Assembly: GCA_003022945.1 (NCBI GenBank)
Contig: PXRZ01000049.1
Span: 1-45,308, forward strand
Direction of reading: 5' to 3'
Length of the DNA: 45,308 nucleotides
DNA from: Halobacteriales archaeon QS_8_69_73
GTDB lineage: Archaea > Halobacteriota > Halobacteria > Halobacteriales > Haloarculaceae
A model generated the notes under the pieces. It made no database searches and was not told the DNA's origin. It saw nothing but the letters and a program-made list of their open reading frames with translations. Made by a program: the position numbers and the translations under genes. Positions 12,637-34,910 of the stretch are shown here, piece after piece. The stretch's first letter is position 1. Every line of letters begins with the position of its first letter.

Positions 12637-13052
12637 ATGGACGAGGTCGACGACGGGCTGTTCGTCGGGACACTAAGCGACGCCGGCACGTCGAGGCTGC
12701 TCCGTAGGAAGGACGTCTCGGCGGTCGTCTCGCTGACGCACGGGCCGCCGGCGGTCCCCGGCGCAGCCGGCGTCGAGGTCGTGCGCGTCCCGATGACAGA
12801 CGACGGAATGAGGCGACGTCGCTCCGGGAAGCCGTCGACGCGACACGGTGCCGACTGGCAACTGGCGAGCGGGTGCTCATCTACTGCCCCGCCGGCGCTT
12901 CTCGGAGTCCGGCGGTCGCGACCGTCGTCGCGCTCCGCCGCAGCGTCGACCTACAGGCGGCGTTCGAGCAGGTGTCGGACCGCCGACCGGAGACGGATTC
13001 GCACGAGTCGCTGGTCCGGCGGGCGGCGACCGTTTACACGGAGACGACCTAA
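12637..13052 (+). pseudogene. Dual-specificity-type protein phosphatase, frameshifted
   Basis: ATG 12637 opens MDEVDDGLFVGTLSDAG, a DSP-like N-terminus, continuing to VVRVPMTDDG. The C-terminal half is in another frame: TSLREAVDATRC, the catalytic CPAGASR loop (Cys-x5-Arg) followed by SPAVATVVALRR, and an end at TAA 13050. Joining the two gives a normal 138-residue cyclic-loop phosphatase. The shift lies near 12800-12815 and equals one missing base. The general-acid aspartate is probably in PMTDD. Real mutation or sequence error are both possible; the intact catalytic loop favours recent damage or error. Confidence 0.75.
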
Positions 13053-13082
13053 TAGTGCATACGACGAAACCCGGCGTGCCGG

Positions 13083-13325
13083 TCAGGCGGTCGAGACCCG
13101 CCAAGTAGTTGCGGAGGTGTACGACCACTTTTCGATCGTCAGCCCGGGGACCGACCCCTGCAGTTGGACGAGGAGGGCGCCGATCTCCTTCGGCGAGAGG
13201 TCGACGTCGTCGGCGATGAACTTCCCCTTGACGTAGAGGTCGCCGTCGGTTCGGTCGGCCTCGGCCCGCAGGTAGCGGGCCAGGCGTTCGGCCTTCGGCG
13301 ACGTGTATGCGGGTTCCGTGCTCAT
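13083..13325 (-). CDS. DUF7123-like small winged-helix protein
   Basis: An 80-residue protein starting MSTEPAYTSPKAERLARYL at ATG 13325. It has a helix, then FIADDVDLSPKEIGALLVQL (HTH-like) and EKWSYTSATTWRV, a wing-like ending. This matches my memory of haloarchaeal DUF7123 proteins, which end in a similar STTWRV. It may bind DNA. The start lies five bases after the stop of the upstream membrane-protein gene, so both are likely on one transcript. Confidence 0.75.
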   Translation of the reverse strand: MSTEPAYTSPKAERLARYLRAEADRTDGDLYVKGKFIADDVDLSPKEIGALLVQLQGSVPGLTIEKWSYTSATTWRVSTA

Positions 13326-13329
13326 GGAT

Positions 13330-13569
13330 TCAGTTAGGGGAGTGACCGTGACCGATGACTGCACACAGGAGGTTCAGGCCGACGGCACCGCCGATGACGT
13401 CCGGCTGCGGGTCGGTCGCGCCAGCGAAGAGGGCCGCGAGGAGCGCGAGCGGCAGCAGGGCCGTAGTCCAGAAGGCGGCTGCCCGGACGCCACCGACGAC
13501 GACGCGTGCGGTGCTGCTGAGCAGGCGGGACGGGTCGAACGTGGGAAGGGTCTCGCTGGCGGTCGACAT
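13330..13569 (-). CDS. Two-helix membrane protein, 79 aa
   Basis: It starts MSTASETLPTFDPSRLL at ATG 13569. It has a hydrophobic stretch at about 30-50 (AAAFWTTALLPLALLAALFAG) and a second at about 57-72 (VIGGAVGLNLLCAVIG). The tail is short and polar. The family is not recognised. A TATA-like box (TTTATATGC on this strand) lies about 40 bases upstream, and the DUF7123-like gene follows five bases downstream. Confidence 0.65.
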   Translation of the reverse strand: MSTASETLPTFDPSRLLSSTARVVVGGVRAAAFWTTALLPLALLAALFAGATDPQPDVIGGAVGLNLLCAVIGHGHSPN

Positions 13570-13606
13570 GTGGATGCTCGTACTACACCGGTGGGGCCCC
13601 CACCCG

Positions 13607-13615
13607 CATATAAAC
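13607..13615 (-). promoter_or_regulatory. TATA-like box of the two-gene unit 13569-13083
   Basis: GTTTATATGC on the minus strand, about 40 bases before ATG 13569. It is the only AT-rich motif in the surrounding GC-rich sequence. Confidence 0.5.
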
Positions 13616-13864
13616 GGCAGAGCCTTGCGGTCAATTCGGCTCCCTTCGTGCCTTTCACGCCGCCGTCGGGGGTCCGGTGCGGATGTCAGCGACGGTTTCT
13701 GAGACGTTTAGACGTTTTACGCGGCGCGCTGTTTCTTTGCCGTCGCTCGAGACCGGGGGTCGCTCCTGGCCGTCGGCGTCCGAGGGGGCAGCCCAGAAAT
13801 CCGGCGATCGGAGCGGTCGCAGCGTCGGGGCGCACTCTCCGTGCCGTCACCCGGACACCACCAA

Positions 13865-13873
13865 GTTATATTA
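13865..13873 (+). promoter_or_regulatory. TATA-like box of the THI5-like gene
   Basis: GTTATATTA lies 24-32 bases before the ATG at 13897, so the transcript should be leaderless. The remaining 250 bases between this site and 13607 hold no gene that I can support. Confidence 0.55.
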
Positions 13874-13896
13874 TGCGGTGGTATCTACGCCGTGTC

Positions 13897-14802
13897 ATGG
13901 ACGAGATCACGCTCGGGCTCGAGTGGTTTCTCAACCCTGACCACGTTCCGTTCGTCGTCGCGGACGAGCGCGGCTACTACGAGGCCGAGGGCCTCGACGT
14001 CGAGCTGTGGGAGCCGCCGGAGCACCACGACACCCTCGAGATGCTGGCCGCCGGCGACCTCGACTACGCCATCACCGAGCCGATCCACCTGGTACCGGAG
14101 CGCTCGGCGGGCGTCCCGGTGACGGGAATCGCCCGGTTCCTGCACACCCGGGGGGGCATCCAGTATCCAACCGACCGCGGGTGGGAGTCGCCGGCCGACC
14201 TCGAGTCAGGCGTCCGGCTCAACTACCCGGGCGCGCCCGGGCCGGGCGGGCGGCGAATGGTCGCGCACATGGCGCAGGAGGCGGGCGGCGACCTGACGGC
14301 CGACGAGATCGAGCCCGTCGACCGGGGGTTCTACCACACCGACGCGCTCGTCGAGGGCGACGCCGACATCGCCTTTCTCGCGTTCTACAACTTCGAGATC
14401 GTCGAGAGCCGCCACCGGGGGTTCGACGCCGATCTCTGGGAGCTGGCCGACTACGGCGTTCCCGACTTCAACCAGCTCGTTCTCGCGGCGGCCGACGGGA
14501 CCGCCGAGGACCGACCGGACGAAGTACGGCGATTCCTCGATGCCACGCGGCGGGGCGTCGCCGACGCCGCCGAGGACGGCGAGGCCGCCGTCGAGCTGTT
14601 CTTCGAGCGACACCCCGGACTCCGAGACGACGACCCGGAGCTGATGGACGAGATCGCGGCGGCGACGCGGGAGTTCTTCACGCCCGATCTCTCGCAGGAC
14701 GTCGAGATGTACCGCGACCTCGTCGGGTTCTGCGAGGAGCTGGAGCTTACCGACGGCCCCGTCGACGTCGACGAGATGGTCGACGAGCGCTTCGTCGGGT
14801 AG
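13897..14802 (+). CDS. NMT1/THI5-like protein (periplasmic-binding fold, no signal peptide)
   Basis: A 301-residue protein with the NMT1/THI5 fold, shared by ABC-type HMP or nitrate binding proteins and the yeast HMP-phosphate synthase Thi5. There is no signal peptide or lipobox, so it looks cytoplasmic, and no permease or ATPase gene is near. Aligned by eye with yeast Thi5 from memory, DHVPF matches YHIPI near the start and EPIHLVPERSAGVPVTGIA matches MIHTLAAKARGFPVTSVA. This places His64 on yeast His66, the residue consumed as substrate. The yeast CCCFC motif is absent; the equivalent place reads GVPDFN. It may take part in thiamine pyrimidine synthesis or simply bind a ligand. Confidence 0.8.
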   Translation: MDEITLGLEWFLNPDHVPFVVADERGYYEAEGLDVELWEPPEHHDTLEMLAAGDLDYAITEPIHLVPERSAGVPVTGIARFLHTRGGIQYPTDRGWESPADLESGVRLNYPGAPGPGGRRMVAHMAQEAGGDLTADEIEPVDRGFYHTDALVEGDADIAFLAFYNFEIVESRHRGFDADLWELADYGVPDFNQLVLAAADGTAEDRPDEVRRFLDATRRGVADAAEDGEAAVELFFERHPGLRDDDPELMDEIAAATREFFTPDLSQDVEMYRDLVGFCEELELTDGPVDVDEMVDERFVG

Positions 14803-14906
14803 CGACGCCCTCGGACGCGGGGGCGTTAAGTCCGTCCCGGACCGAGCGAGGCCGTGGTCGTGGTTCGACGGCAGATACCGACGACGGGCGCCGCCGGGGG
14901 TGGAGC

Positions 14907-15359
14907 GTGAGCCGGCTGGGCCGGTCGCTGGTGCTCCGGTTCGACGGGAGCGTCCGCTACGGCCCGGACAACGCCGACCCGCGGGCGGCGGCCGTCGGCT
15001 ACGTCGTCGAGGAGGCCGCGCCGGTGCTCGAGGGCTGCCGGGAGCTGTCGGCATTCGTCTCGAGCACGCACGTCGAGTTCCGGGCGCTCGTCGCCGGCGC
15101 CCGAGCGGTGGCGGAACTGGCCGAGCGCGACCGGGTCAGCGACGTCCACGTCCGCGGAGATTCGGCGGCCGTCATCGAGACGGTCGACCCCTCGCGCCCG
15201 ACCGGCGTCGGCGGCGACGTCTGCCGCCGCCGCGCCGAGCGCGTCCGGGAACTGCTCGAGCCGGTTCCGACGGTCACGTACCGGCGCGTGCGCCGCGAGA
15301 AGAACGATCGAGCGCACGAACTCGCCGTCCGGGCGTACGACCGTCCCGGCAGGGGCTGA
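14907..15359 (+). CDS. RNase HI-like protein
   Basis: A 150-residue RNase H-fold protein starting at GTG 14907 (VSRLGRSLVLRFDGSVRYGP). The acidic active-site residues of type 1 RNase H are visible: Asp in LRFDGS, Glu in THVEFRALVAGARA, Asp in VRGDSAAVIETV, and a final Asp in KNDRAHELAVRA. Family members cleave the RNA strand of RNA-DNA hybrids using two metal ions. The start is uncertain because a longer open frame precedes it; GTG is chosen since the first strand begins directly after. It is convergent with the tRNase Z gene, with a 12-base gap. Confidence 0.82.
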   Translation: MSRLGRSLVLRFDGSVRYGPDNADPRAAAVGYVVEEAAPVLEGCRELSAFVSSTHVEFRALVAGARAVAELAERDRVSDVHVRGDSAAVIETVDPSRPTGVGGDVCRRRAERVRELLEPVPTVTYRRVRREKNDRAHELAVRAYDRPGRG

Positions 15360-15371
15360 GTGTCGCTATCG

Positions 15372-16283
15372 CTACTCCGGGGTGACCTCCGTCGACTCGC
15401 CGTCGCGGACGGCGACGACCTCGCCGTCGAACTCCGTCTCGGCCTGCGAGGCGAGCCGTCGCTCGTCGTCTTCGTGTCTCGGAGAGATGTGCGTAAGCCA
15501 GAGCCGTTCACTGCCCGACGTCGCGGCGACCGCTCCCGCCTCCGCGGCGGTCGAGTGCCCGGTCGAACGGGCCCGGTCGGACTGCTCCTCGGCGAACATC
15601 GCGTTGTATATCAACAGCGAGGCGCCCGAGGCGGCCTCGACGACCTCGGGAACCGGTCTGGTGTCGCCTGTGTAGACGATCTTCCGCCCGGCGACCGGCT
15701 CCGAGAGGACGTCCGCGGGCTCGACGACGTCCCCATCGTCGGCCTCGACGGTCTGGCCGTCCTGCAGCCGGCCGTACTTCGGACCGGGGTCGACGCCGAG
15801 CGCCCGCGCCTCCTCGACGAGGAACTCCCGGCTGTCCGTCTCCTGTACGACGAAGCCGTGGGAGTACTCGGTGTACGGCGTCTCGAACGGGCGGATCGCG
15901 TATTCGTCCGTCTCGACCGCCGGGCCGTCGGCGGCGTAGCCGTGGACCTCGACCGGGTAGCTGGGCCGGCCGTAGGCCCCCTCGATGGTGTCGACCGCCC
16001 GGCCCGTCCGCCCGTCGGGGACGTAGACGTCGAGCGGCCGCTCCCGGTCGTTCATCTCCAGGGCCTGCACGAGCCCCGGCAGGCCGAGCGTATGGTCGGC
16101 GTGAAAGTGACTGACGAAGACGGCGTCGACGTCCGGCGAGGCGTCGTACCGCATCAGCCGCTGTCCGGAGCCCTCGCCGCAGTCGAACAGGAGCTCGTCG
16201 CCGAACAGATTCAGGTAGACGCAGCTGGTCCCGTACTGCGCGGTCGGGACCCCGCCGCTCGTTCCGACAGCAGTGACGCGCAC
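15372..16283 (-). CDS. rnz: tRNase Z (ribonuclease Z)
   Basis: A 303-residue metallo-beta-lactamase-fold endonuclease that removes the 3' trailer of pre-tRNA. The start MRVTAVGTSGGVPTAQ is characteristic of the family. The zinc motif HFHADH is at 59-64, followed by TLGLPGLVQAL. YTGDTRPVPEVV supplies the bridging Asp and HSTAAEAGAVA and LTHISPRH the later His ligands. The usual EATF before AEEQ reads NAMF, a substitution near but not in the metal site. The length is normal and the start is the ATG at 16283. It is probably functional. Confidence 0.94.
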   Translation of the reverse strand: MRVTAVGTSGGVPTAQYGTSCVYLNLFGDELLFDCGEGSGQRLMRYDASPDVDAVFVSHFHADHTLGLPGLVQALEMNDRERPLDVYVPDGRTGRAVDTIEGAYGRPSYPVEVHGYAADGPAVETDEYAIRPFETPYTEYSHGFVVQETDSREFLVEEARALGVDPGPKYGRLQDGQTVEADDGDVVEPADVLSEPVAGRKIVYTGDTRPVPEVVEAASGASLLIYNAMFAEEQSDRARSTGHSTAAEAGAVAATSGSERLWLTHISPRHEDDERRLASQAETEFDGEVVAVRDGESTEVTPE

Positions 16284-16404
16284 GTATCGACCTGGGAGCG
16301 ACGACGACTAAAACGTGCGCACTACGGGACCGTCCGGGCCGGGCGACGGCGCCGGGGCCGCCGGGCCGTCGCCGGTCGTCCGGCGCGTCCCCGACGCAGC
16401 GCGG

Positions 16405-17208
16405 CTACTCCGGCGGGCGAACGACGGCCCCGAGGTCGTGGAGCGTCCGCTTGGTCGCGTACACCCGCTCGCCCCGGTGGTCGACGACGCGGGTGTTGCG
16501 CAGCGTCGCCGTGCTCACGTCCGTCGCGCGGAGGGTTGCCCCGGAGAGGTCGGCGCCGGAAAGGTCGACCTCCCGCAGCGTGGCGTCGGTCAGGTCGGCG
16601 TCGCCGAGGTCGGTCTCGGCGAGGTCCGCTCCCGTCAGGTCGGCGCCGGCGAGGGAGATGCCACGGAGGTCGGCGCCGGCGAGGGAGGCGTTCCCGAGGT
16701 CGGCCCCGGCGACGTAGGCGCCCCGGAGGTCGGCCGTCCCGAGGTCGACGCTCCCGAGGGCGGCCGCCCTGAGGTTCGCCTCGACGAGGTCGGCGTTCTC
16801 GAGACGTGCGTTCCGGAGGTCGCTTTCGTAGACGACGGCGTCGGTGAGGTCGGCGCCGGCGAGGGTCGCCTCCGGTAGGGCGGCGTCCGGCGCGTGCGCC
16901 CCCGCGAGGTTTGCGTGGGCGAGACGCGAGCCGGTGAGGTCGGCACCCGTCAGGGTCGCGTCCTGGAGGACCGCGTCCCGGAGGTCGGCGTTGTGGGCGC
17001 TCGCTTTCAGGAGGTCGGCCCCGGCGAGGTCCGCCCCTCTGAGGTCGGCCCGCGTCAGCGTGCAGAACCGCAGTACCGTCTCCGTCAGCGTGGCGTCGGT
17101 GAGGGTGGCGTCGGCGAGGTCCGCGTTCGTCAGCTCGAGCCCGCCCAGGTGAGCCTCCCCCCGGATCAGGCTCTCGTCGACCGGGTGTTCGTCCGCCAGA
17201 TCGACCAT
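16405..17208 (-). CDS. Pentapeptide-repeat protein
   Basis: From about residue 27 almost to the end the 267-residue protein consists of A(D/N)Lxx five-residue repeats (ADLADATLTDATLTETVL, ADLRGADLAGADLL and so on), more than 35 consecutive units. They build a right-handed quadrilateral beta-helix. The last 25 residues (VVDHRGERVYATKRTLHDLG) form a cap. Some such proteins mimic DNA and protect gyrase; this cannot be inferred here. There is no signal peptide. The start MVDLADEHP at 17208 is preferred over an ATG at 17256, since the extra residues are unlike the domain. The repetition makes the locus prone to length change. Confidence 0.88.
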   Translation of the reverse strand: MVDLADEHPVDESLIRGEAHLGGLELTNADLADATLTDATLTETVLRFCTLTRADLRGADLAGADLLKASAHNADLRDAVLQDATLTGADLTGSRLAHANLAGAHAPDAALPEATLAGADLTDAVVYESDLRNARLENADLVEANLRAAALGSVDLGTADLRGAYVAGADLGNASLAGADLRGISLAGADLTGADLAETDLGDADLTDATLREVDLSGADLSGATLRATDVSTATLRNTRVVDHRGERVYATKRTLHDLGAVVRPPE

Positions 17209-17323
17209 ACGGTCAGTCAACGAGCCAGCCGAATCAAGCTTCGGACATCGCAGCACATCGCGGCGTCGGCCCGAGCCGGAGTGACGGCGAGACTCCGGTC
17301 GGTGACCGGGAGAGGACCGCCGC

Positions 17324-19731
17324 TTACCCCTCGAACGCCGCCAGTACGTCGTCGAGGATCATCGTGCCGGTCGCCCGGTCCAGCGGGTCGTTGTTGTTGC
17401 CACAATGCTCACTCATGACGCACATCGGACAGCCGCGGCGGCGCCGACAGTCGCAGGAGTCGATATACTCGCGAGTCCGGCGGGCCAGCGACTCGAAGTG
17501 CTCGTAGATGGCCTTCGAGAAGCCGATGCCGCCGTCGATGCCGTCGTGGACGAACCACGTCGGGCCGGGGATCGTCTCGTGGCCGTGGGACGGCGTCGAC
17601 AATCCGCCGATGTCGGCGTTGTCGATCATCAGCTCCAGCGGCGCCAGCCCGATGACCCCGTGTTCGGCCGCGTGCAACCCGCCGCCGTAGGTGTACATCG
17701 CCTTCGCGTCCGGTACCGCGCCGTCGCGTTCGGCGCGGGCGGTCGGCTCCAGAAGCGGCGCCTCCAGGGCCTCGATCGTTTGCTCGGCGTGACCCTCGGG
17801 CAGCGCCACCCACAGCAGTTCGGTCTCGAGGTCGAGCGGCGGCGCCTCGGTCGGAATCGGCCCCTCGACGACCTCGCCGCCGAAGACGTTCCGGACGAGG
17901 TACTCGTCGTACCGGATCCGGACGGTCCCCTCCCCGAAATAGAGGCCGTAGTCGCCGGCCAGCGGCGTGTGCTCGCGGACCGACAGGTCCTGGACGCGCT
18001 TCGTCGACATAGTCTGGGTGTACTCGTCGGTCGCGACCGTCTCGACGGTGATGACGGGGCGGCGGTCCTCGTCGATGTCGACGACCTGGTACTGCTGGCC
18101 GGCGTGGAGGAACAGCGCCCCGACGTGGTAGTCTCGGTAGGCCCGCTCCCGGGCGACGGGGTCGTGGTCGATGTCGCCGTCCCGGCAGACGACGCGGAAC
18201 TCGGTCGTCCCCGTGCCGTAGATGGACAGCCGACTCTGTGGCCGCCGGTCGCCGTCGTAGGTTACGCCGCCGGCGTCGAGGTCGCCGGCCGGCTCGAGGA
18301 CGCCGGCGTCCTGCCACATCGAGACCACCTCCCGGAACCGGGTCTCGTCGCCGAGGTACGCCGCGTCGCCGGCCGACAGCGGCCGCTCGGCGGCCGCCGC
18401 CAGTACGTGGTCGGCGTAGACGCGGTCATTGTCGACGGAGACGACGGCGTCCTCGACGGTGTCGTCGTCGAAGAGGTAGCCGGGGTTGCGGAAGATGTAG
18501 CCGTCCATCGCGTCGGTGCCGCCGACCAGCACGGAGACGGCGTCGCTGACGCCGCGGCCGGCGCGGCCGACCTGCTGCCAGAAGGACTGCTTGGTCCCCG
18601 GGTAGCCGGCGGTGACGGTCGCGTCCACCGAGCCGATGTCGATGCCCAGCTCGAGGGCGTTCGTCGTCGGCACGGCGTCGAGATCGGCGCCTTTGAGCTT
18701 GTTCTCAACCGCGCGTCGCCGCTTCTTGCCGAGGCCGGCGTGGTACGGCTCGGTCTCGACGTAGGGGTCCAGCGGGTGGTCGGCGGCCGCCCGGACGATC
18801 TGTTTGGCGGCGATTTCCGTTCCCTGGCGGGCCGAGCAGAACTGCAGCGTCTGGGTGTCGTGGGCCGCCAGGTGGGCGGTCACCGTCGCCGCCTCGGTCC
18901 CGGTCGAGGCGCGGGCGGCCTCGAAGTCCGCGAGCGGGTCGTCGGCCGCCTCGTCGAGGTCGTCGTCCTCCAGCGGCGGCTCCCAGAGGACGATGTCGCG
19001 GGCGCCGCGCGGCGAGCCGTCCCGGTCGACGACCGCGAACTCCGCGCCGGTGAGGTTGCTGGCGTGCGTCGCCGGGTTGCCGATGGTTGCCGTCGTCAGC
19101 ACGAACTGCGGGTCGGCGTCGTAGTACGACAGCAGCCGGCGCAGCCGCCGGAGGATGAACGCCACGTGCGTCCCCGTGACGCCGCTGTGTCGCCGTCGTA
19201 GACGCCGATCGTCGCGTCGACGTCCCAATTCCCGCGGAGCTTGTCGTTCAGCGTCCGCTCCTGGTCGCGGGCCAGCGCCTTCATCGGGAACAGACACAGC
19301 GCGGTGCTTTCGGGGTTCGCCAGGTGGTTCCGCGCCATCTGCAGCGCGTAGATCCATGTCTTCCCCGACGACGTCGACGTCGTGACGACGACGTCGTCGC
19401 CGTCGGCCAGCCGCTGGAGCCCCGCCGCTTGGTGGGAGAACAGCTCCCGGTCTACCCGGTCGGCCAGCGCCGGTCGCAGCACCTCGTCGGCCGGCACCGT
19501 CGACGCCTCCCGTGCCGGGACGTCCTCGGCGTGACTGACCTGCTCCCGGTAGTCGGGGTAGCTATCCGCCAGCGCCTCCCGGTTCAGCACCCCGTCGGCG
19601 ACGGTGCCGCCGCTGTCGTCGCCGCCGTCGGTCAGCAGCCGGCCGCCGGCCGGCCGGTCGTCGGTCGTCGTCTCGGCACGGTCGCCCCCGGTCGGCGCCG
19701 GGTCGGAACTGTCGTGTGATCGCATCGTCAT
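17324..19731 (-). pseudogene. MrfA/YprA-like DEAD/DEAH helicase with DUF1998, internally deleted
   Basis: The N-terminal part (ATG 19731, MTMRSHDSSD) carries Walker A STSSGKTWIYALQ and LFPMKALARDQ, and runs to GVYDGDTA. The sequence then jumps to GVTGTHVAFILRRLRRLL in another frame and continues to the end: LTTATIGN (motif III), ALELGIDIGS, QQVGRAGRG (motif VI), and the DUF1998 cysteine cluster CDCRRRRGCPMCVMSEHC. In homologues roughly fifty residues including the DEAH box lie between the two parts. Deletion plus frameshift is near 19180-19190. Bacterial MrfA unwinds DNA in mitomycin C excision repair. The ATG overlaps the stop of the upstream exonuclease gene, indicating an operon. Confidence 0.82.
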
Positions 19732-21274: not shown

Positions 21275-21279
21275 TTCGA

Positions 21280-21800
21280 CGGCCCTGCCGGCCCCGAGCG
21301 AGCCGCCGCTCCGTCGGCCTTGCGGGTCGCATCGCCGTCAGGACGCCACGGCCCGCAGCTCTCGGTACCACTTCGGAGCGGTACGGTCGGCTCACGGCAA
21401 CCGGCTGGTCGGGCGGGGTGCTCCCGGGAGTACGAACGTCCTGTCGGTCGTACCGAACTCGGTTCGGGTCGCCGACCGCTCGCCGTTCGACGGCCCGCCG
21501 GCGACGACGGCGCCCGTCGCCGCGCCGAGTCAGGCGAGGACGTCCGCCATATCGGTAGTGCCCGGTAGCCGCGCTCGCTCCCGACGTCGTCGGGTTCCAT
21601 CGGTTCCACGCTCGCCGGCGCGCTCGAACGGATCCATGATTGACGTACGTGGCCGACCGGAGCGCACGTCACACGAACGTATCACGTACATCTACGCGAC
21701 GCGGTCGACGGTCCCGCCGACCGCACGCGAGCCGGCAACCGCCCCGACGGACGCGACGGAGGTCGCCACGCCCCGAACGCCGGCGTCGTTCCGTATTCGT
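21280..21800. other. Gene-free stretch with possible decayed coding sequence
   Basis: About 520 bases without a convincing gene. On the minus strand short frames look protein-like, such as AGVRGVATSVASVGAVAGSR (plus about 21740-21790) and LGAATGAVVAGGPSNGERSA (about 21470-21530). They are separated by stops in and between frames. They may be remnants of a decayed gene. No RNA gene or repeat was seen. Confidence 0.4.
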
Positions 21801-21835: not shown

Positions 21836-22918
21836 ATGAGGTCCGAGGGCGGTACGTTCGACGAGAGGCAGGCAAAAACCGGCGACCACGACGGGGCGAC
21901 CGGCAGTCTCGAGCGCGACGGCGCGGGTCGAGTGGGTCGTCGCGAGTTCCTGGCGGCCGGCGGGACGGCGGCGACCCTGGCGGTCGCCGGCTGTGCCGGC
22001 GGCGGCGACGGCGGCTCGCTGACGGTCTCGACGTGGAGCGGTGCCAACGAGGAGGTGTTCCGGGAGACGATCAGGCCGATGTACGAGGAGCGGACGGGCA
22101 ACGACCTCGAGGTCGTCGGCAGCTGGACGAACATCCTCGGGCAGCTCCGTCAGTCGCCGTCGGACGACCCGCCGTTCGACCTGACCGTCGGCAGCAGCCG
22201 CGATCACTACCTCGGCACGCAGGACGAGCTGTGGGAGCCGATCCGGTACGAGAACGTTCCGAACGCCGAGACGATCAAGCCCGCCGTCCAGGGCAACCTC
22301 GACAGCGACCTGGGGGTGCCGGTCGCCTACGGCATCATGGGTTACGCCTACGACGCCGACGCGGTCGACTTCAACGCGGTGATCATGGGCGCCATCGCCG
22401 CCGACGAGGCACCGATGGCCGAGGAGATGTACGACGAGGACCAGCGCGACGCCATCTTCGACACCCTATCGGAGATGCCGGTGGCGAAGTTCTACGAGGG
22501 CGCCGAGGACATGTGGACGTCGATGAACGGCGGGATCGCCGACGCGGGGCAGTACTTCTACGCCTACAGCCGCCGACGGGACGAGAACGACCCCGAGCTG
22601 AACGTCGGCTTTCACGTCCCCGACCGGACGCTCGGCTACGTCGACCACTACCAGGTCGCCCGCGGCAGCAGCAACCGCCAGCAGGCCGAGGAGTTCATCG
22701 ACTTCCTGCTGGACGAGGAGGTCCAGACGGCCTACGCCGAGGCGTTCAACCTCGGGATGGCGAACGAGAACGCCGACCACCCCGAAGCGACGCGTGAGGA
22801 GGTCCCGATCGAAAACGACGAGCTGGACGAGGGCATCGTGTTCAAGCAGTACAGCCGGGTCGCCGAGGTCGCCCCCGACCTCGACGAGCGGTTCAAAGAG
22901 TTCCAGAACCAGTTCTGA
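21836..22918 (+). CDS. ABC transporter substrate-binding lipoprotein (PotD-like), Tat-type signal
   Basis: A 360-residue extracytoplasmic binding protein of the polyamine/iron/thiamine class. The long acidic leader contains the twin-arginine VGRREFLAAGG, a hydrophobic stretch and lipobox AVAGC, so it should leave folded by Tat and be lipid-anchored. TVSTWSGANEEVFRETIRP opens the binding fold, and QVARGSSNRQQAEEFIDFLL is the typical late helix. Between AYDADAVD and FNAVIMGAIAADEAP homologues usually have a longer stretch, so a small in-frame loss near 22370 is possible. It is first in an operon with ATPase and two permeases. The ligand cannot be told. Confidence 0.87.
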   Translation: MRSEGGTFDERQAKTGDHDGATGSLERDGAGRVGRREFLAAGGTAATLAVAGCAGGGDGGSLTVSTWSGANEEVFRETIRPMYEERTGNDLEVVGSWTNILGQLRQSPSDDPPFDLTVGSSRDHYLGTQDELWEPIRYENVPNAETIKPAVQGNLDSDLGVPVAYGIMGYAYDADAVDFNAVIMGAIAADEAPMAEEMYDEDQRDAIFDTLSEMPVAKFYEGAEDMWTSMNGGIADAGQYFYAYSRRRDENDPELNVGFHVPDRTLGYVDHYQVARGSSNRQQAEEFIDFLLDEEVQTAYAEAFNLGMANENADHPEATREEVPIENDELDEGIVFKQYSRVAEVAPDLDERFKEFQNQF

Positions 22919-22946: not shown

Positions 22947-23078
22947 ATGAGCTCAATCGGAACCGCGGGCGCTCGGCGAGACGCGACGGGCCGGTCGACG
23001 ACCGCCGGGATGGGCCGGACGCCGACGGCTGCGGCCCCGGCCTCGACCCCGGACGGCGCCGCGGGTGGTGCGTCGTGA
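22947..23078 (+). CDS. Possible 43-residue leader or linker ORF
   Basis: ATG 22947 opens MSSIGTAGARRDATGRSTTAG, rich in Gly, Ala, Thr and Arg, ending at a TGA that overlaps the next gene's GTG (GTGA at 23075). The position between binding-protein and ATPase genes and the coupling overlap are in favour. The low-complexity composition and lack of family are against. It could couple translation of the ATPase, or be chance. Confidence 0.3.
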   Translation: MSSIGTAGARRDATGRSTTAGMGRTPTAAAPASTPDGAAGGAS

Positions 23079-24130
23079 CGGGGGTGGTCGACCTCGACGG
23101 AATCCGGGTCACGTACGGCGACGTGACGGCCGTCGAGGAGCTGTCGCTGTCGGTGCGGGACGGGGAGCTGTTCTGTCTGCTCGGGCCGTCCGGCTGCGGC
23201 AAGACGACGACCCTGCGGGCGGTCGCCGGCTTCGAGTCGCCGGCCGCCGGCCGGGTCGTCCTCGACGGCCGAGACGTGACCGGTCTCGCCCCGTACGACC
23301 GCGGCTGTGCGACGGTGTTCCAGGACTGGGCGCTGTTCCCGAACAAGACCGTCGCCGAGAACGTCGCATTCGGGCCGAAGATGGCCGGCGTCCCGGCCGA
23401 GCAGCGGCGGGAGCGGGCCCGCGAGCAGCTGGCGGCCGTCGAGATGACCGACCACGCCGACGACCCCCCGGGGCTGGAGATAAAGAAGATCCAGGAGCGG
23501 CTGGAGACGCCGATGCTGTACGTCACGCACGACCAGGAGGAGGCGTTCACCCTCGCCGACCGCATCGGGATCATGAACGACGGCGAGTTGGTCCAGGTCG
23601 GCGCCCCGAGGACGGTGTACGACGACCCCGTCGACCGGTTCGTCGAGGCGTTTCTCGGCAGCACCAACTTCCTGTCGGGACGGGTGGTCGCCGGCACCGG
23701 CACCGGCGCCAGCGTCGGGGCCGACGCCGTCGCCGTCGAGTTCCCGGCTGCGGGGCTCCAGGCTCCGGTTCCGGCCGACGACGACCTCGCCATTGGCGAC
23801 GACGTGACGGCGTCGGTCCGGCCGGAGGTCGTCGACCTCGCGCCGGCGGTCGACGGAGCGGCCGCGAGCACCGACGGCGGTGCGGCGTCGGAGCCGGACG
23901 TCACCGGCCACGCCGACGGCCGCGCGATTCTCGCCGGGACCGTCTCGGAGGTCGTCTACCGCGGGTCGAACGTCCGGCACCACGTGGCCGTCGGCGACGG
24001 CGCGGAGCTGTTCGTCGAGCGGCCGGTGACCGACGCGCCTGGCCTGGCAGCGGGCGACGCGGCGCGGCTGTCGTGGGACGTCACCGACGCCTACTACTTC
24101 GGGCCCGACGGCGCCCGGATCCGGCTGTGA
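23075..24130 (+). CDS. ABC transporter ATP-binding protein (PotA-like), missing signature and Walker B
   Basis: A 351-residue importer ATPase starting at GTG 23075. Walker A GPSGCGKTT is at 38-46, the Q-loop VFQD at 81-84 and the H-loop Asp-rich VTHDQEEAFTLADR at 150-163. A TOBE-like C-terminal regulatory domain occupies about 215-351. Between HADDPPG (about 127-133) and LEIKKIQERL (134 on) the LSGGQ signature, the Walker B LLLDEP and the D-loop are absent. Homologues have some 35-40 residues there. The reading frame is kept. Without these the protein should not hydrolyse ATP. It overlaps the following permease gene by four bases (GTGA). Confidence 0.88.
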   Translation: MTGVVDLDGIRVTYGDVTAVEELSLSVRDGELFCLLGPSGCGKTTTLRAVAGFESPAAGRVVLDGRDVTGLAPYDRGCATVFQDWALFPNKTVAENVAFGPKMAGVPAEQRRERAREQLAAVEMTDHADDPPGLEIKKIQERLETPMLYVTHDQEEAFTLADRIGIMNDGELVQVGAPRTVYDDPVDRFVEAFLGSTNFLSGRVVAGTGTGASVGADAVAVEFPAAGLQAPVPADDDLAIGDDVTASVRPEVVDLAPAVDGAAASTDGGAASEPDVTGHADGRAILAGTVSEVVYRGSNVRHHVAVGDGAELFVERPVTDAPGLAAGDAARLSWDVTDAYYFGPDGARIRL

Positions 24131-27421: not shown

Positions 27422-27447
27422 GCGTTGATGACCTGTGCGTCTGCTAT

Positions 27448-27701: not shown

Positions 27702-28094
27702 TCAGTACGTCTCGACGTCGACTCCGAGCGTCGTGAAGTCCTCGACGTCGTCGGTGAGGACGGGTTCGTCGTAGACGTCGGAGACTGCCGCAACCATCGG
27801 ATCGACCTTGTCGATGCCGCTTTCGCCGTCGGCTCGCTGGTCCGCTCGTGCGAGGAGTTGTCCAGCGCGGTGAGCGATCGTCTCGTCCTGCTCGACGACC
27901 GGATACATTCGAAGCGCGTTCCCGACGTTCCGCCGTTCGTCCTCGTCGCCGAACTCGGCACCGTACGAGAGCTCCACGACGACCGGTGACGGAACCCGCT
28001 GGACGGTGTTCGCCTCCGAGAGTTCGGTGCCTCTCTCGAAGGCACCCTCGTGACCGTCGAAGAGATCGATCAGAAACGACGTATCGAGGATCAC
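27702..28094 (-). CDS. vapC: PIN-domain ribonuclease toxin (VapC family)
   Basis: A 130-residue PIN domain protein. Acidic active-site residues are Asp4 in MILDTSFLIDLF, Glu41 in VVVELSYGAEF, Asp in KVDPMVAAV and Asp in VLTDDVEDF, which form the Mg-dependent RNase centre of VapC toxins. Typical targets are tRNA or rRNA loops. The ATG overlaps the antitoxin stop by four bases, so it is the second gene of a vapBC operon. The length is normal and nothing looks broken. Confidence 0.9.
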   Translation of the reverse strand: MILDTSFLIDLFDGHEGAFERGTELSEANTVQRVPSPVVVELSYGAEFGDEDERRNVGNALRMYPVVEQDETIAHRAGQLLARADQRADGESGIDKVDPMVAAVSDVYDEPVLTDDVEDFTTLGVDVETY

Positions 28095-28321
28095 TTGAAC
28101 CGCTCCCGGAGTTCGTGTTTCGCTTCGGTATCAGTCTCGTGCGTGCTTTCGAGACGATCCCGCATGGCCGTCGCCGTTTCCGACGAGAGTATCCCGGCGA
28201 CATCCTCGGGACGAGGTCCCCCGATGAGCCGGCGGAGCGTCTCCTCCATCGTCTCGTCTTCGCGCTTGTGCGCCGTCACGAATTCGTGGAACTCCTCGGA
28301 GATACGGACCGACTTGCTCAT
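28091..28321 (-). CDS. vapB: VapB-type antitoxin (UPF0330/DUF217-like)
   Basis: A 76-residue protein starting MSKSVRISEEFHEFVTAHK, a ribbon-helix-helix-like N-terminus. EETLRRLIGG follows, characteristic of archaeal VapB of this family. The C-terminal half is charged and helical (AKHELRERFK), the part that would block the toxin. It lies directly before vapC with a four-base overlap. A palindrome covering its start codon is the likely autoregulatory operator. Confidence 0.85.
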   Translation of the reverse strand: MSKSVRISEEFHEFVTAHKREDETMEETLRRLIGGPRPEDVAGILSSETATAMRDRLESTHETDTEAKHELRERFK

Positions 28322-28341
28322 ATACCGTATATTCGGGTATA
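28321..28341 (-). promoter_or_regulatory. Palindromic promoter/operator of vapBC
   Basis: ATACCGTATATTCGGGTAT is an inverted repeat (ATACC/GGTAT arms around an AT-rich centre) touching the vapB ATG. Its centre could also act as the initiator region. Autoregulation by VapBC complexes through such palindromes is established for the family. Confidence 0.5.
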
Positions 28342-28580
28342 CGCACCTATCAACTTTCGGCTATTGTTCGGGAGTATCGTTCTCTCTGTCAGGCGACCGT
28401 CTTCGGTCCAGCGCGGCGGGCGGGGGTCGAGCTGACCGGGACCTGCGCCTATTGTGGCAACAACTGATACGCTCGGAGACACCGTTTACCGTCAAAATAG
28501 ACGGCTTGATACTTACAATCACAATCTATCTATATAAAGCATCATTAGCGACTGAATCGAGTCAGGAATAATACGTTACT

Positions 28581-28874
28581 ATGGATAATACAGAACGACC
28601 CGAACGCCTGCTATCCGATGCTGATGCCGCCGAGATATTAAGGCGGATGGAAGAGGACTTGAAGTGGGCGCTAGTGAAGTGTGTGAGAATAGCGGTTGAA
28701 GATGATGAGAAAGAGTACAAGCACAAGATCGTTGAGGTTGAGATACCCAATCGCGAGCAGGGTGAGGTTGTCGAGACAATAGACACAGACGGGAATCCCA
28801 ATACAGAGAGCGAGGCACTATATGAGGTCTCGCAGAATTATCTTGAGAGGGTATCCCCGTGTTTGCGCCTATGA
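28581..28874 (+). CDS. Unknown 97-aa acidic protein in the AT-rich island
   Basis: It starts MDNTERPERLLSDADAAEIL at ATG 28581, 15 bases after AATAATACG. It is charged and probably helical in the first half, then IVEVEIPNREQGEVVETIDTD looks like two strands. No family is recognised. Codon use is more AT-rich than that of the core genes, suggesting acquired DNA. Its TGA overlaps the ATG of the following 54-residue gene (ATGA), so they form a coupled pair. The next gene beyond is the opposing DUF262 relic. Confidence 0.6.
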   Translation: MDNTERPERLLSDADAAEILRRMEEDLKWALVKCVRIAVEDDEKEYKHKIVEVEIPNREQGEVVETIDTDGNPNTESEALYEVSQNYLERVSPCLRL

Positions 28875-29035
28875 CCTACGAGAACGAGGACGGTGAAACG
28901 GTACATGCTGACGGTGAGATAATGGTCAAACCGGGAACCATGGAATTCATTCCGGCTTCCGTTGACGAACTCCCGGGTTTGTTTCACTGTGACCTGGAGA
29001 TGCTAACTGACCTGCCGGTTCACAGTGAGGAGTAG
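28871..29035 (+). CDS. Unknown 54-aa protein coupled to the preceding gene
   Basis: ATG 28871 opens MTYENEDGETVHADGEIMVK, followed by PGTMEFIPASVDELPGLFHCDLE and ending at TAG 29033. It is acidic, with a beta-rich look and no membrane part. The four-base overlap with the upstream gene and consistent codon use support it. No function is known. A two-gene unit of small acidic proteins next to VapBC and a DUF262 gene may be a toxin-antitoxin, anti-defence or regulatory module, which is speculation. Confidence 0.55.
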   Translation: MTYENEDGETVHADGEIMVKPGTMEFIPASVDELPGLFHCDLEMLTDLPVHSEE

Positions 29036-29194
29036 GATCGATGGCTGAGCGAACGTCTTAGTCCTACTGTTCCGAAATTTTGAACCAGAGCAATTTGGAA
29101 TTCCTCACGCTTAGAGCGACGCCTACTTACTAACTAGTTTATCGTGGTTACGGAATATTGACAAGATCCTGAGTGAGCAGTCAGTAGTTCATGC

Positions 29195-30886
29195 TCAGAG
29201 CGACCAGCGTTCAATAAGCTCATTTGTCAACTCTCTTGTATGCTCATTGATATCCTCACTTGTCCAGTCATCATACCTTGCTACATTTTCAGCAATTTTT
29301 ACATCTGAATCGGAGTACGTCCTCTTCTTCGACGCGAACGATGTCTCCTCAATCGACGCGTGGTCGCCGTCAAGTAACAGAGTGAGGTTACCGATGAGGT
29401 TTTTCTGCTGTTCGAATCGGCCGTCGTCCAATTTCTTACGCCACTCTCGGTACTCCGGCTTCTCGTACGTCCGGCGTGGGGCAATATGTTCAACGTGTAG
29501 GTTGTCCAGTTCCATTCGCCACGGACCACGTCGCTCTTCTTCTATGCTGACCAGTGTCAGCGTGGTTCGGAACTGCCATGAGCCAAGGACGCTCATTCCG
29601 TTCGCTTTTAGATATTCCTCTATCTCACCATCTGTCGGGGTGTACTCCCTAATAGCCTCACGGAGCTTTTCTCGAATTTCGTTTTCATCTTCCGTCTGCT
29701 GAACCTCTGCCGACGTGCTATAAATAGCATCCCGCATATCTGCGGACGACATTGAACTCAACTGCATCCGCATCGCCAGAATTGAAGCGAGCCTGAAGTT
29801 CTCCTTTAGCAAGATTTCTCTGTTGATGTTGTTATAGATGGCGAGCGACAGAACCTCAGAATGCGTAGAGGCAGAGTTGAGGTACTGCAGATGACGGATA
29901 GCATCGTCAGGGATGTCTTGACCCTCTACTTCGTAACTGTCACTGGTGATCTGAAGATAGATATCGACCTGTCGTTTGAACCACTGGACGAAATCGTACA
30001 CGTCGTCGTAGTTCTCCAGAACTTTCTCGAAGTATCGATACAGCTCGCTCTTGTCTATCTGCCGTGGAGTCGGGACGTCCGAATTGATGAGAATCTGTGT
30101 CATCGGACGACGAATACGAAGCCGTCGCTGGAATCTTGGACCGCCTAAGTTGTCTTCAAGCAATTCGTAGGTGTAGTCCCATACACGGGTGATTTCACGA
30201 GCCCTTCTCAAATCATCTATGTCATCGGCTTCACCGTGAATCCGCGCCTTCGCAAGAATCTGTGGTGAGACGTCTTTCCCACGCTCATTCTGCGACTGAA
30301 AGATAGCGTACGCAAGACTGGAATCTGTAGCCTTCGTCTCAACCACCTTCAGGAAGTCACAAATATCGTCGAGCAGACCTTCTATTTCCTCTCCATCGAG
30401 ACCGCTGATTTCAGTGACATAGTAATCGTAAGCGTTCCGGACTCGTCCATTTGCCTCCTCAATATCACCTTGTCATAACTTATCGAACTCTTCTTTCGTG
30501 TCCTCGTCCGCAAGTTCTACTTTCGACTCAGGACTCCCGCCTCTGTTTACCTCCAGAATATCCTTCATCCGCACATCGTTTAATCCTCCATCCTCATTGA
30601 CATCAAAGTCACCTACATCACGAATCGCCATCGCAAGAATCGAGATAGTCACTATCCGCTGTTGACCGTCCACAATCTCGTACGTTCGTCCCGTGTCCTT
30701 CTCAAGTAGAATGATATTACCGAGGTAGTGCTGGTTGACTTGGTCACCAATACGATTTACATCCGTCCACAGGTCTCGCCAGTGCTTCTTTTACCACTCA
30801 TATCCCCGTTGATACTCAGGTACGGCAAAGATAGCACCCCTCTTATCCCCGAGAAGGTCTCTGACCTTCTTATAACGTGCCCGCAT
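29195..30886 (-). pseudogene. DUF262/DUF1524 restriction-type protein (GmrSD/SspE-like), two in-frame stops
   Basis: Reading the minus strand from ATG 30886 (MRARYKKVRDLLGDKRGAIF), one single frame runs to 29195. The N-terminal DUF262 part has VPEYQRGYEW and the nucleotide motif VDGQQRIVTISILAMAI. The C-terminal DUF1524 part has the HNH-like DNLHVEHIAPRRTYE and NLIGNLTLLLDGDHASI. It is broken only by a TAA (plus 30791-30793) after GYEW and a TGA (plus 30473-30475) after EEFDKL. Each can come from one base change. GmrSD and SspE relatives use NTP in DUF262 and nick or cut modified DNA with DUF1524. The intact length would be about 563 residues. Confidence 0.8.
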
Positions 30887-31552
30887 AACATGACCAAACG
30901 AAAGGACGAATTATAAATATAATTGAGAGCTTCTCGATTGATACTAATTTCATCAGAGGATACGACCTCTAAGTTAGGAGCACCGCTCGCGTAATTCTGT
31001 TATAAGGAGAATAATGCTCCGTAATCACAGACACTTGAATATCGACTTTGGATTGACATAGATGCATATTTTTATTTTAATTTCAAATCGTCTCCACTCC
31101 CTGCACCCGCAATTAAAAGTCGGAATTGAGCTATGACAGCCGATTAGATATATTCAGGGTACGCCCGACGCTATTGCATCTTCGTCTGCTCGGAACCCCT
31201 GTAGTAATGTTTACCAAGCACGTCCATGGCCCACATTCATCAAGTCACCAATGACCTTCTCTGGGATATCGATGAGTAACTACGCCTATGTGACGCCTCA
31301 GAGTGTACTCTATTCGATCGTAAATGACGACTGTCCTCTTCAAAGTGACAGACACGATTCTCCCACGTCCATTCGCTTCTCCTTGCAAACCTATGGATAG
31401 AAAGCCGGCCTCGGCACTCATAGGGCTCGTCACCGCCGGGTGCCTACGCCGGCTCGGCCCGGTAGGTCGTCATCGGCCGTTCGTCCGTAGGCGCTCCCGT
31501 GTCAAATCGCTTCGGCCCGCCCGCCGTAGCGGTGCCCGCGGCGCCGCGCGGC
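30887..31552. other. AT-rich stretch without supported genes
   Basis: About 670 bases. The first two thirds are AT-rich (for example ATGCATATTTTTATTTTAATTTC near 31062) and all frames are short or implausible. From about 31400 the composition becomes GC-rich again, which probably marks the island edge. No repeat, tRNA or attachment site was recognised. Confidence 0.5.
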
Positions 31553-32281
31553 TCACAATTCGATCTGGCGCAGGTCGTGCTCCAGCCCCGCGACGTGGTC
31601 GTTGTACGCGTCGACGAAGCCGCCGAACCGGGGGGCGTACTCGCGAAGGTCCGTCGCCGACGGCGGGCCGTACTGCGAGACGAGGTAGACGCCGCCGGAG
31701 CCGCCGACGCGGAGGTACGAGACGTCGTCCCCGTCCCACTTCAGCTCCCAGCGCGTGCCGTCGACCCGCGCGGCGTAGCTGCCGTACTCGGAGGACTCAC
31801 AGCGACGGAGCTCCCGCGCCATCGTCTCACAGCAGCGCTCGATGGTTTCGAGAATACGGTCCCGTTCGGCGGCGATGCCGTCGGTCGACTCGACGGGCGC
31901 ACCGGACGCCTCGGCGCCGTCGAGGATCCCCGCCAGCGAGTCGACGTACTCGTTGTAGGCCTCGAGAAACGCCCCGTAGTCGTCCAGCGCCGCCGCGAGC
32001 GGCTCCGGGTCGGCGGCCGCCTGCGTCGAAACCACGTACGTCTCGCCGCCGCCGCGCGGCTCGTAGCGGAGGTACTCGACGTCGCCGGCCTCGTAGCTGA
32101 GCGTCCACTCGCCGCGGTCGGTGGTGAACGAGCGGCTGCCGTAGTCGCCGCCCTGCAGCCTGGCGAGACCGTACGCCACCCGGCCGGCGTGGTCGCGGAC
32201 CGCCGCGAGCACCTCGCTGCGCCGCTCGGCGACCGCGCTCGCGTCGGCCAACTCGACATCCAGGTTTGCCAACGAACCCAT
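31553..32281 (-). CDS. Unknown protein with tandem duplicated domain, 242 aa
   Basis: ATG 32281 opens MGSLANLDVELADASAVAER. The protein consists of two similar halves. Each has a helix with AxxLxR, then YGS-plus strand, then a W-L strand and YLRxxxxGGxYxVS (residues about 47-89, DYGSRSFTTDRGEWTLSYEA; and about 168-208, EYGSYAARVDGTRWELKWDG). A helix with YNxxVxxL closes each half. Internal duplication is therefore clear. There is no signal peptide or membrane segment. I do not recognise the family. It stands at the GC-rich side of the island boundary, without operon partners. Confidence 0.75.
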   Translation of the reverse strand: MGSLANLDVELADASAVAERRSEVLAAVRDHAGRVAYGLARLQGGDYGSRSFTTDRGEWTLSYEAGDVEYLRYEPRGGGETYVVSTQAAADPEPLAAALDDYGAFLEAYNEYVDSLAGILDGAEASGAPVESTDGIAAERDRILETIERCCETMARELRRCESSEYGSYAARVDGTRWELKWDGDDVSYLRVGGSGGVYLVSQYGPPSATDLREYAPRFGGFVDAYNDHVAGLEHDLRQIEL

Positions 32282-32489
32282 ATCGTATCGACGCCGCCGA
32301 CGGGGATAATCACCCCGATGGGCCACGGTCCGGCGGGTCTTCGAACGGGTCCGGTCACCCGAACGCCTTACCGGCGACCGCACGACCGGTCGCGCTCGAC
32401 GGCTCCGGCGTCGGACGTCGCCGGGAGCAGCCGCGAACTCGGGGTCGTCGTCGACCGCCCGTCGCTACGGCGGCGGGCCAAGTGCGTTG

Positions 32490-32870
32490 TCACTCCTCGT
32501 CGCCGGACTCGACCAGCCCGAGTTCCTCGCCGACGCCGAGGACGTCCAGCTGTCGGAGGAACTCGTCGTCGGTGGGGTCCAGCGGCAGGTCGGCGTTTTC
32601 GAGATCCAGCAGCATTTGGTCGTCGCCGGTGTCGACCAGCAGGTCGCCGTCGGCGACCTCGCCGACGATGTCGTCGCTGGACTCGACGGCGTCTTGGAGC
32701 AGTTCGCCCAGCGACTGGCCGGTCTCCTGGGCCTCCTGTAGCAGGTCGACGACGACGTCCGGCGCCGAGGAGGGGTCCTCGACGGCCTGCTGGAGCAGCT
32801 CGCCGAGCGTCTGTCCGGTGTCCTGGAGTTCGGACTGCAGCTCCTCGAAGAGTTCTTCGGCATCCGTCAT
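32490..32870 (-). CDS. Acidic helical protein with internal LxELLQ repeats
   Basis: A very acidic protein of about 126 residues from ATG 32870 (MTDAEELFEELQSELQDTGQ); an ATG at 32906 is possible. The segment TGQTLGELLQQAVED is followed by TGQSLGELLQDAVES about 30 residues later, so the helix-forming unit is duplicated. The second half (DGDLLVDTGDDQMLLDLE) is acidic and beta-like. No known family or cofactor motif was recognised. It may be an adaptor or small-ligand protein; no neighbour helps. Confidence 0.65.
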   Translation of the reverse strand: MTDAEELFEELQSELQDTGQTLGELLQQAVEDPSSAPDVVVDLLQEAQETGQSLGELLQDAVESSDDIVGEVADGDLLVDTGDDQMLLDLENADLPLDPTDDEFLRQLDVLGVGEELGLVESGDEE

Positions 32871-32906
32871 GATAGGCGCCAAATCGTCCCCCACCGACAT
32901 AGGCAT

Positions 32907-33230
32907 GATGGTCGGCCGGCGGCCTCGCTTTCTCCGGCGGTGCCGGCGTCCGGCCCGCGGCGGCGGCCTCGCTGTCGGGCGATCATTTCGGCGACGGCTC
33001 CAGAGGTAATCGTAACCGCTCCGGCCATAGAGGTACGCGTACGTCGGTACGTACCACACACCGGCGTCTGGAGTGCGGCTTCGAGGCGGTGGCGGGCACC
33101 GGCGAGTGGGCGGCCGTCGAGCACCCGCCGCTAGGCGAGCTCACGCGGCGTCCGGAGTGCGACAGCGCGAACGCACGGACGCCGTAGCCGGGCGGGGTGG
33201 GCTTTTGTTCGGCCGGAGCGTGGGGCCGAC
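32907..33230. other. Intergenic stretch with no supported gene
   Basis: About 320 GC-rich bases. The one notable item is the inverted repeat GTACGCGTACGTCGGTACGTAC at about 33031-33054, whose role is unknown. All frames are arginine-rich shadows. Confidence 0.5.
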
Positions 33231-33440
33231 ATGGTCGACGAGGAGACGACCGAGCGCATCGTCGAGGTGCTGGACGAGGCCGACGAGCCGCTGACGGCCG
33301 GGGAGGTCCAGCGTCGCATCGCCACGCAGAGCCGCGACGTGACGACGGGCGTGATACGCGACGCCTGCGGCGAGTTGGTCGACGCCGGTCGCGCCGAGGC
33401 GACCGACGACCTGCCGCCGGCCTACCGGCTCCTCGAGTAG
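33231..33440 (+). CDS. Small winged-helix protein, 69 aa
   Basis: MVDEETTERIVEVLDEADEP leads into LTAGEVQRRIATQSRDVTTGVIRDACGELVDAGRAE, a complete HTH plus short wing (YRLLE end). It is typical of stand-alone haloarchaeal wHTH proteins acting as regulators. The start is the ATG at 33231. The following 500 bases hold a non-coding element. The target is unknown. Confidence 0.78.
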   Translation: MVDEETTERIVEVLDEADEPLTAGEVQRRIATQSRDVTTGVIRDACGELVDAGRAEATDDLPPAYRLLE

Positions 33441-33500
33441 GAGCGACTGCTGGACGGGGAGTCGCGGGCGCGAGCGCGGGCAGTCGCGGCCACGGTCGGT

Positions 33501-33966
33501 TTGACCTCCTCCCACGGCTGAAGCCGTTGGATTCCTCACGCGGTGGGCAACCCGGTGTTGCCGCACCCGGAGGCAAGATTCCCCACGTCGTCGTGGGTAC
33601 TCCGGTCTGCGGGTTCCGCTTCGGCCCCTCGAGTGGGTCTGGTGTGGTTGCCCTCCCGGGGTATCCGCTCGCGGCAACCCCGCTTCGTCTCGGCGACGAC
33701 ACGGTGGTTCCACCGTCGTGTTCTCTCGGGTGGCCGGCGGGCCGGGCCATCGGCCCCACCGCCGTTTCAGTCTCAGGTAGCGGTGGCAAGTGCGGGCGGG
33801 CTCGCTTTTTGCTGACGGAGACACCCATCCAACTCCACGTTTCCCGACTTGCTTGCCGCGTTATACCACACCCGGCAGAATAAAATATGGGGATTGCAGC
33901 CACGCTAAAGCAGCGGAAGGCAGCACTATGTTGTCGCTCGCACCCACCCGTGAACGGGTGGGCTTC
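33501..33966. mobile_element. Putative non-autonomous IS200/IS605-derived element
   Basis: About 466 bases without a gene, bounded by two hairpins sharing the loop TGAA: CCACGGC/GCCGTTGG at 33512-33530 and the perfect CCCACCCG/CGGGTGGG at 33943-33962. Such end hairpins are characteristic of IS200/IS605 elements. The interior has further stems (for example CCCCACGTCGTCGTGGG). Neither TnpA nor TnpB remnants were found. It lies between the wHTH gene and the stop of the deoxyhypusine synthase gene. True ends are unknown. Confidence 0.45.
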
Positions 33967-33979
33967 CGCTCGCTACGTG

Positions 33980-34910
33980 TCAGTCGCCGTCGACCCGGTC
34001 GCGCGCGGCGGCGACGACCAGCGGCAGCGTGATGGTCGCGTCGGCGTAGACGGAGACGCTGCGGGCGTCCCGCTCGAGTTTGCCCCACGAGCGGGCCTCG
34101 TCCAGCGTCGCCCCCGAGAGCCCGCCGGTCTGCGGCGGGTCCATCGTCAGCTGGACCGCGTAGTCGTAGGCCCCCGGCGTCACCAGCATCGTCTGCAGGA
34201 CGTAGTTCTTCGGAACGCCGCCGCCGACGACGATGGCGGCCGTCGAGTCCGCCTCGTAGGCCAGGTCGTTCAGCGGCGACATGTCGGCCAGGGCGTCCAG
34301 GGAGAAGCCCGACACCTGCGAGCGGAGCCACGCCTGCAGCCCGAGCACGGAGTCCTGGACGGCCGGCACGTGGATCGGGACGTCGTGTTCGAAGGCCGCG
34401 GCGGCGATGCCGGCGTCCTCGTCGACGCCCTCGCGGTCGTTGCTCTTCGAACAGCGCGAAGTGCTCCTGCGGCAGATAGACGTTGTAGATGCGGTCGACG
34501 CCCTCCTCGCGCAGCCGCTCGTCGAACGCCCGGTCGTCGAGGGCGGGGTGGTCCTCGCGGCCGTGGTGGTGTTTGCCGCCGATCGCCTCGATGGTGTCGT
34601 GGGTCAGCGTCGCGCCCGTCGTCACCAGCGCGTCGACGTAGCCGTCCCGGATCAGGTCGGCGACGACGGCCCGCATTCCGGCCGGCACCATCGCGCCCGC
34701 CAGCCCGATGAAGGTCGTCGCCTCGCCGTCGAGTATCTCGCCGGTCACCGCGACGGCCTCGTGGAGGTCGGCGGCGCCGATACCGGCCTTGCCGTACTCG
34801 GCGGCCAACTCGGCGACGGTCATCCCCGCCGAGACGCTCGCGTGCTCGACCGGGTCGTGTCCGAACTCCTCGCGCCCTGGTGCGTCGTCATCGTCGTCGC
34901 CGTGGCTCAT
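33980..34910 (-). pseudogene. dys: Deoxyhypusine synthase, internally deleted and frameshifted
   Basis: The N-terminal part from ATG 34910 (MSHGDDDDDAPGREEFGHDP, then SAGMTVAELAAEYGKAGIGAADL and LIRDGYVDALVTTGATLTHD) reads to YLPQEHFALFEEQ. The C-terminal part in another frame reads REGVDEDAG, VPAVQDSVLGLQAWL, VGGGVPKNYVLQ, TGGLSGATLDEARSWGKL (with the catalytic Lys in SWGK) and YADATITLPLVVAAA. Homologues have an estimated 25-35 more residues at the join near 34440-34446. The enzyme transfers aminobutyl from spermidine (or an equivalent) to aIF5A and is generally essential in archaea. So a second gene elsewhere, or a sequence artefact, is expected. Confidence 0.85.

Follow-up and report, generated by a model that had tools for sequence, protein, structure and literature searches.

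In pseudogene-rich reductive genomes, for example that of Mycobacterium lepromatosis, many damaged genes lie close together and indispensable genes are spared. Damage can also arise during assembly: uncorrected scaffold gaps and local errors in metagenome drafts are described as putting incomplete or incorrect genes into databases (PMC7111523, Genome Res. 2020, which we take to be the work of Chen et al.), and many pseudogenes in microbial assemblies are described as artefactual, with near-identical genomes differing in their pseudogene counts (Cooley and Wright 2024, PMC11017572). Here we analyse a 45,308-nucleotide stretch from Halobacteriales archaeon QS_8_69_73 (assembly GCA_003022945.1, contig PXRZ01000049.1; hereafter the window, meaning the whole of this stretch), in which an initial annotation had reported an unusual density of damaged genes, several of them losing only the catalytic core. 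From the comparison with related genomes, we hold with high confidence that these "core-deleted" genes are assembly artefacts, produced where contigs were abutted at scaffold gaps that had been sized too small.

The window shares with reductive genomes a set of many damaged genes close together but, unlike them, belongs to a draft in which indispensable genes are hit. It resembles the cases in PMC7111523, in the part of that account drawn on here, in that scaffold joins and uncorrected errors yield incomplete protein-coding genes in a public draft; it differs from them in its many joins free of N and its preferred loss of about 75 bp, one error described there being of the opposite kind, with Ns inserted although the flanks overlap. 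As in the portion of PMC11017572 considered here, the apparent pseudogenes of the draft seem to be caused by assembly, although the lesions treated there are frameshifts and internal stops, whereas in our draft most lesions are gaps spanning tens of codons.

The window is, end to end, contig C49 of a draft (G000 below) of 2.63 Mb in 79 contigs that is 76.3% complete and 0.35% contaminated, and whose fragmentation suggests a metagenome bin. Judged by deoxyhypusine synthase, and among the best 80 loci listed, its closest named relatives are Natronomonas spp., identical at 81-83% of amino acids and followed closely by Haloglomus and by environmental drafts of haloarchaea; such a listing may leave out records very near the draft's own genome. 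We compared the window with a colinear region of the related genome G011 (C14:16135-54686; mean identity about 94%) and extended the comparison across the draft, using stretches that total 576 kb from G000 and 933 kb from G011; of these, 240,391 bases could be aligned, forming 12 chains. A third genome, G007, was used within the window. Genes in G011 were called by a crude method based on guanine-plus-cytosine content (GC) by codon position, which overlooked one gene of interest, that of the importer described below; its open frame was looked up separately.

Five genes of the window contain a hole relative to G011:

17324..19731, minus strand: DEAD/DEAH-box helicase with an MrfA-type Zn-binding domain; 160 bp short at about 19187
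21836..22918, plus strand: extracellular solute-binding protein; 75-bp in-frame hole at about 22369-22372
23075..24130, plus strand: importer ATP-binding cassette (ABC) ATPase; 123-bp in-frame hole at 23473
33980..34940, minus strand: deoxyhypusine synthase; 92-bp hole at about 34441, frame broken
42264..42530, minus strand: transcription factor S (TFS); 78-bp hole at 42286/42287

As facts of sequence, the damage that the initial annotation reported in the helicase, importer ATPase, deoxyhypusine synthase and TFS is therefore confirmed; the hole in the solute-binding protein had been overlooked, as had gaps at 21.29, 21.50 and 40.67 kb. All five genes are open frames in G011, and G007 carries the missing segment at the helicase, solute-binding protein, importer and deoxyhypusine synthase. 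In the helicase the frame is broken and the DEAH-box region is gone, leaving residues 1-191 and 236-855 in separate frames, at a site where G007 has 159 bp. The hole in the solute-binding protein corresponds to a 25-residue gap, G007 having 78 bases at the site and the window 3. The importer ATPase is a whole open frame in both related genomes, and the part it lacks in the window is what we take to be the signature and Walker B region. Deoxyhypusine synthase, which lies at L030:5136-6182 in G011, lacks 31 internal residues, as placed on the sequence; the gene is single and whole in all 19 of the other genomes of the genus, and the draft has two pieces only. At TFS, the final 20 of the 106 residues of the G011 protein, which matches TFS_arch end to end, have no match in the window. 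The initial annotation had looked to reads or a sister assembly for intact genes at such sites; G011 and G007 are indeed whole at the main ones, but these two are related genomes rather than further assemblies of the draft's own population.

The holes are not confined to the window. Across the aligned bases, clean gaps of 60-200 bp number 34 in the draft and 5 in G011 (binomial p = 2e-6). The view that this is too much damage for a normal chromosome is accordingly borne out as an excess, although one that is draft-wide and not a property of the window alone; the raw rate is higher in the window (8 in 33 kb) than in the rest (26 in 207 kb). The 34 gaps are 64-174 bp long, with 16 of them at 70-78 bp and six at exactly 75 bp, a size peak that departs from an exponential distribution (p about 0.005). 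In 28 of the 34, the two sides of the join share just 0-2 bp, and in the other six 3-6 bp. For 29 holes, 91-99 of 100 flank positions agree with G011, and the remaining five are less securely placed (64, 67, 67, 84, and 85 of 100). Shorter pieces of 20-59 bp show the same direction, with 18 absent from G000 and 4 from G011. When G007 was set against G011 as a small control (24.5 kb aligned), the 60-200 bp range contained one clean 78-bp gap and one near-clean 94-bp gap. Frame-breaking insertions and deletions of 1-19 bp in genes called in G011 are near symmetrical (G000 shorter in 72, longer in 58) and so are uninformative on G000 alone.

Genes are not avoided by the holes: 27 of the 34 overlap a called gene by at least 10 bp (28 counting the importer), and called coding sequence makes up a fraction of 0.74. 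We ran NCBIfam models on ten recognisable proteins out of the 27 distinct G011 proteins hit. Seven of the ten score above the cut-off of a family model and align to it nearly end to end, namely ribosomal protein uL1, cysteine--tRNA ligase, dihydroxy-acid dehydratase (IlvD), TFS, CofD, deoxyhypusine synthase, and a geranylgeranyl-reductase-family protein. Of the other three, the helicase falls below the cut-offs, the solute-binding protein is without a match, and an Obg/DRG-like GTPase passes no model but that of the general small-GTPase domain. The near-full-length matches of the seven imply that the missing part is truly missing in G000. Cysteine--tRNA ligase is split there over two frames, with the hole near its C terminus, and uL1 is 34 residues short, near its N terminus. 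Searches of the draft found no second uL1, no second whole deoxyhypusine synthase, and no second whole cysteine--tRNA ligase, the only match to the last besides the broken gene being one of 140 positions below the cut-off.

A further line of evidence comes from the gaps that the draft does declare. The stretches of G000 drawn on contain nine runs of N, six of which were set against the corresponding distance in G011, taken here as the true distance. All six are shorter: 78 Ns for 159 bp, 96 for 194, 159 for 411, 124 for 173, 73 for 252, and 204 for 347.

We infer that the step that failed was the sizing of scaffold gaps. The assembler would have stopped at certain places, and the two contigs on either side would have been joined with a gap declared as zero, so that 64-174 bp of real sequence, most commonly about 75 bp, would be dropped with no N left as a mark; at longer gaps Ns would be inserted, although too few. 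Gap sizes would in this way be underestimated throughout, those up to about 170 bp coming out as zero. Such undersized joins would account for the holes themselves, their size class, their one-sidedness against G011, the hits in sole copies of genes, and the N-runs that are too short. The missing segments are present in both relatives at four of the five genes listed above, and in G011 but not G007 at 11072; the gaps are draft-wide and one-sided with a size scale of their own, and most joins have next to no homology. The window sequence does lack these pieces, whereas the organism very probably has them, and the genes are probably whole in the living cell.

Several observations weigh on the other side. 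The draft, at 76% completeness, may conceal second copies, although a concealed copy could help only if there were one for several genes at once. Outside the window, the direction assigned to a gap leans on the wholeness of the G011 protein, which is family-confirmed for 7 of the 10 run, out of 27 hit. Segments longer than 200 bp are absent more often from G011 (17) than from G000 (7). At one of the N-runs, the distance in G007 is 230 bp, near the 204 Ns. Hole lengths are multiples of three in 17 of 34 cases (other classes 12 and 5; p = 0.04), an excess that falls to 11 of 28 once the six 75-bp holes are removed. Finally, the 34 still include one site at which a relative other than G011 also lacks the segment:

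11063..11072, no strand: 76-bp excess in G011, the segment being absent from G007 as well as from the window

The sequences here suggest that this is probably not a hole in the draft but an insertion specific to G011 that happens to be close to the holes in size.

Among the alternatives, the one that survives best is that a mixture of strains was collapsed by the assembler, its graph branching where strains differ and the segment at the branch being skipped. This is itself a form of artefact, differing from undersized joins in why the assembler stopped, so that the two overlap in the credence given to them; taken as the explanation, we regard it as rather unlikely. In its favour, the source is apparently a metagenome bin, close relatives exist, and a mixture would likewise yield homology-free joins and undersized gaps. 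Most of the holes, however, do not lie in unusually variable sequence, given the close match of 29 of 34 flanks to G011, and the declared N-runs fall short as well, for which reason we prefer mis-sized scaffold joins. An assembly artefact was among the explanations offered by the initial annotation; it finds support, and better in this form than as a collapsed mixture.

Real deletion in a lineage undergoing rapid decay, as also proposed, is by comparison highly improbable. The joins are clean and sit amid good sequence, half of the holes would keep the reading frame, and the lesions in a phosphatase, a DUF262 gene and a tnpB gene described below are of ordinary pseudogene kinds. Decay would, however, be expected to spare indispensable genes. 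Instead, cysteine--tRNA ligase, uL1, and deoxyhypusine synthase each have a hole in the one copy that the draft was found to contain, both relatives have whole genes at the main sites, sizes peak at 75 bp, and there is no sign that genes are avoided. Real deletions might also be expected to lie outside genes or to keep the frame, and here the holes point both ways: called genes are overlapped by 27 of 34, and 17 of 34 are in frame (11 of 28 without the 75-bp class). The deoxyhypusine pathway is, moreover, described as essential in archaea in the portion of Prunetti et al. (PMC5178350) considered here, which does not itself report deletion of an archaeal deoxyhypusine synthase gene. Were the deletions true, they would make a remarkable case of a free-living archaeon without a whole cysteine--tRNA ligase, uL1, or deoxyhypusine synthase.

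Loss of DNA while libraries were prepared or amplified, at hairpin-forming GC-rich sites, is no more credible than decay. The genome is of high GC (background 0.704 in the aligned stretches), yet GC in the missing stretches is a little below this (0.680) and, when their DNA folding is compared with that of random aligned stretches, only 1 of 34 falls among the most stable 5%; being neither GC-richer nor more hairpin-prone, and sharing only 0-2 bp at most joins, they do not fit the proposal of the initial annotation. Least credible of all is a natural process that would remove stretches of about 75 bp at random and without homology in some cells, with the consensus keeping the short alleles.

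Two further candidates were rejected. Recombination between direct repeats is unsupported at joins of which 28 of 34 share so few bases. Selective loss of catalytic cores is likewise unsupported: the apparent restriction to the core looks like an effect of selection, as other holes take N-terminal (uL1), C-terminal (cysteine--tRNA ligase), or internal (solute-binding protein) parts.

If gene segments are missing at undersized joins, as we conclude, it would be a mistake to read gene loss or catalytically dead proteins from this draft; its completeness of 76% may also be partly understated, since marker genes are holed. The pattern further offers an inexpensive way of finding unmarked scaffold gaps in other assemblies: gaps that cluster near a single size and on one side only of an alignment to a colinear relative, along with N-runs that are too short.

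Taken as a whole, the reported damage is real in the sequence and very probably wrong for the organism, and it includes some lesions of ordinary kinds. These lesions fall outside the class of holes and may be real:

8146..9616, no strand assigned: insertion of about 1.47 kb with an IS605-type tnpB on the minus strand, absent from G011 and G007
12637..13050, plus strand: phosphatase; net 4-bp loss against G011 near 12799, frame broken
29195..30886, minus strand: DUF262/GmrSD-type gene; in-frame stops at 30473-30475 and 30791-30793, frame otherwise open

The phosphatase, which we so name on the assumption that the signature CPAGASRSP identifies it, and neither piece of which matches Pfam, is broken as the initial annotation stated; its core is not deleted, as the signature is still encoded in another frame. 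For the DUF262 gene, which has GmrSD_C in its C-terminal part (Pfam), the reported breaks at 30.5 and 30.8 kb are two nonsense codons. The gene lies in a segment, 28534-31406, that is AT-richer (GC about 0.51-0.54 in 2-kb bins) and unaligned to G011, as in a strain-specific island. In tnpB, the N terminus is out of frame as far as the translation read by eye indicates, while both Pfam domains are retained. A UspA-like stress gene, so named from a reading of the translation and not from a family search, has the insertion at its 5' end; the ends of the insertion read like the hairpin ends of IS605-type elements.

The remaining length differences against G011 within the window comprise three joins at which the change may have gone in either direction:

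21282..21291, no strand: G011 longer by 284 bp; variable region
21501..21516, no strand: G011 longer by 174 bp; variable region
40666..40667, no strand: G011 longer by 73 bp; outside called G011 genes, in a comparison of two genomes

In addition, the window is longer than G011 by about 320-590 bp at 957-1432, 2737-3064, and 4745-5322, an excess that possibly reflects gaps in G011.

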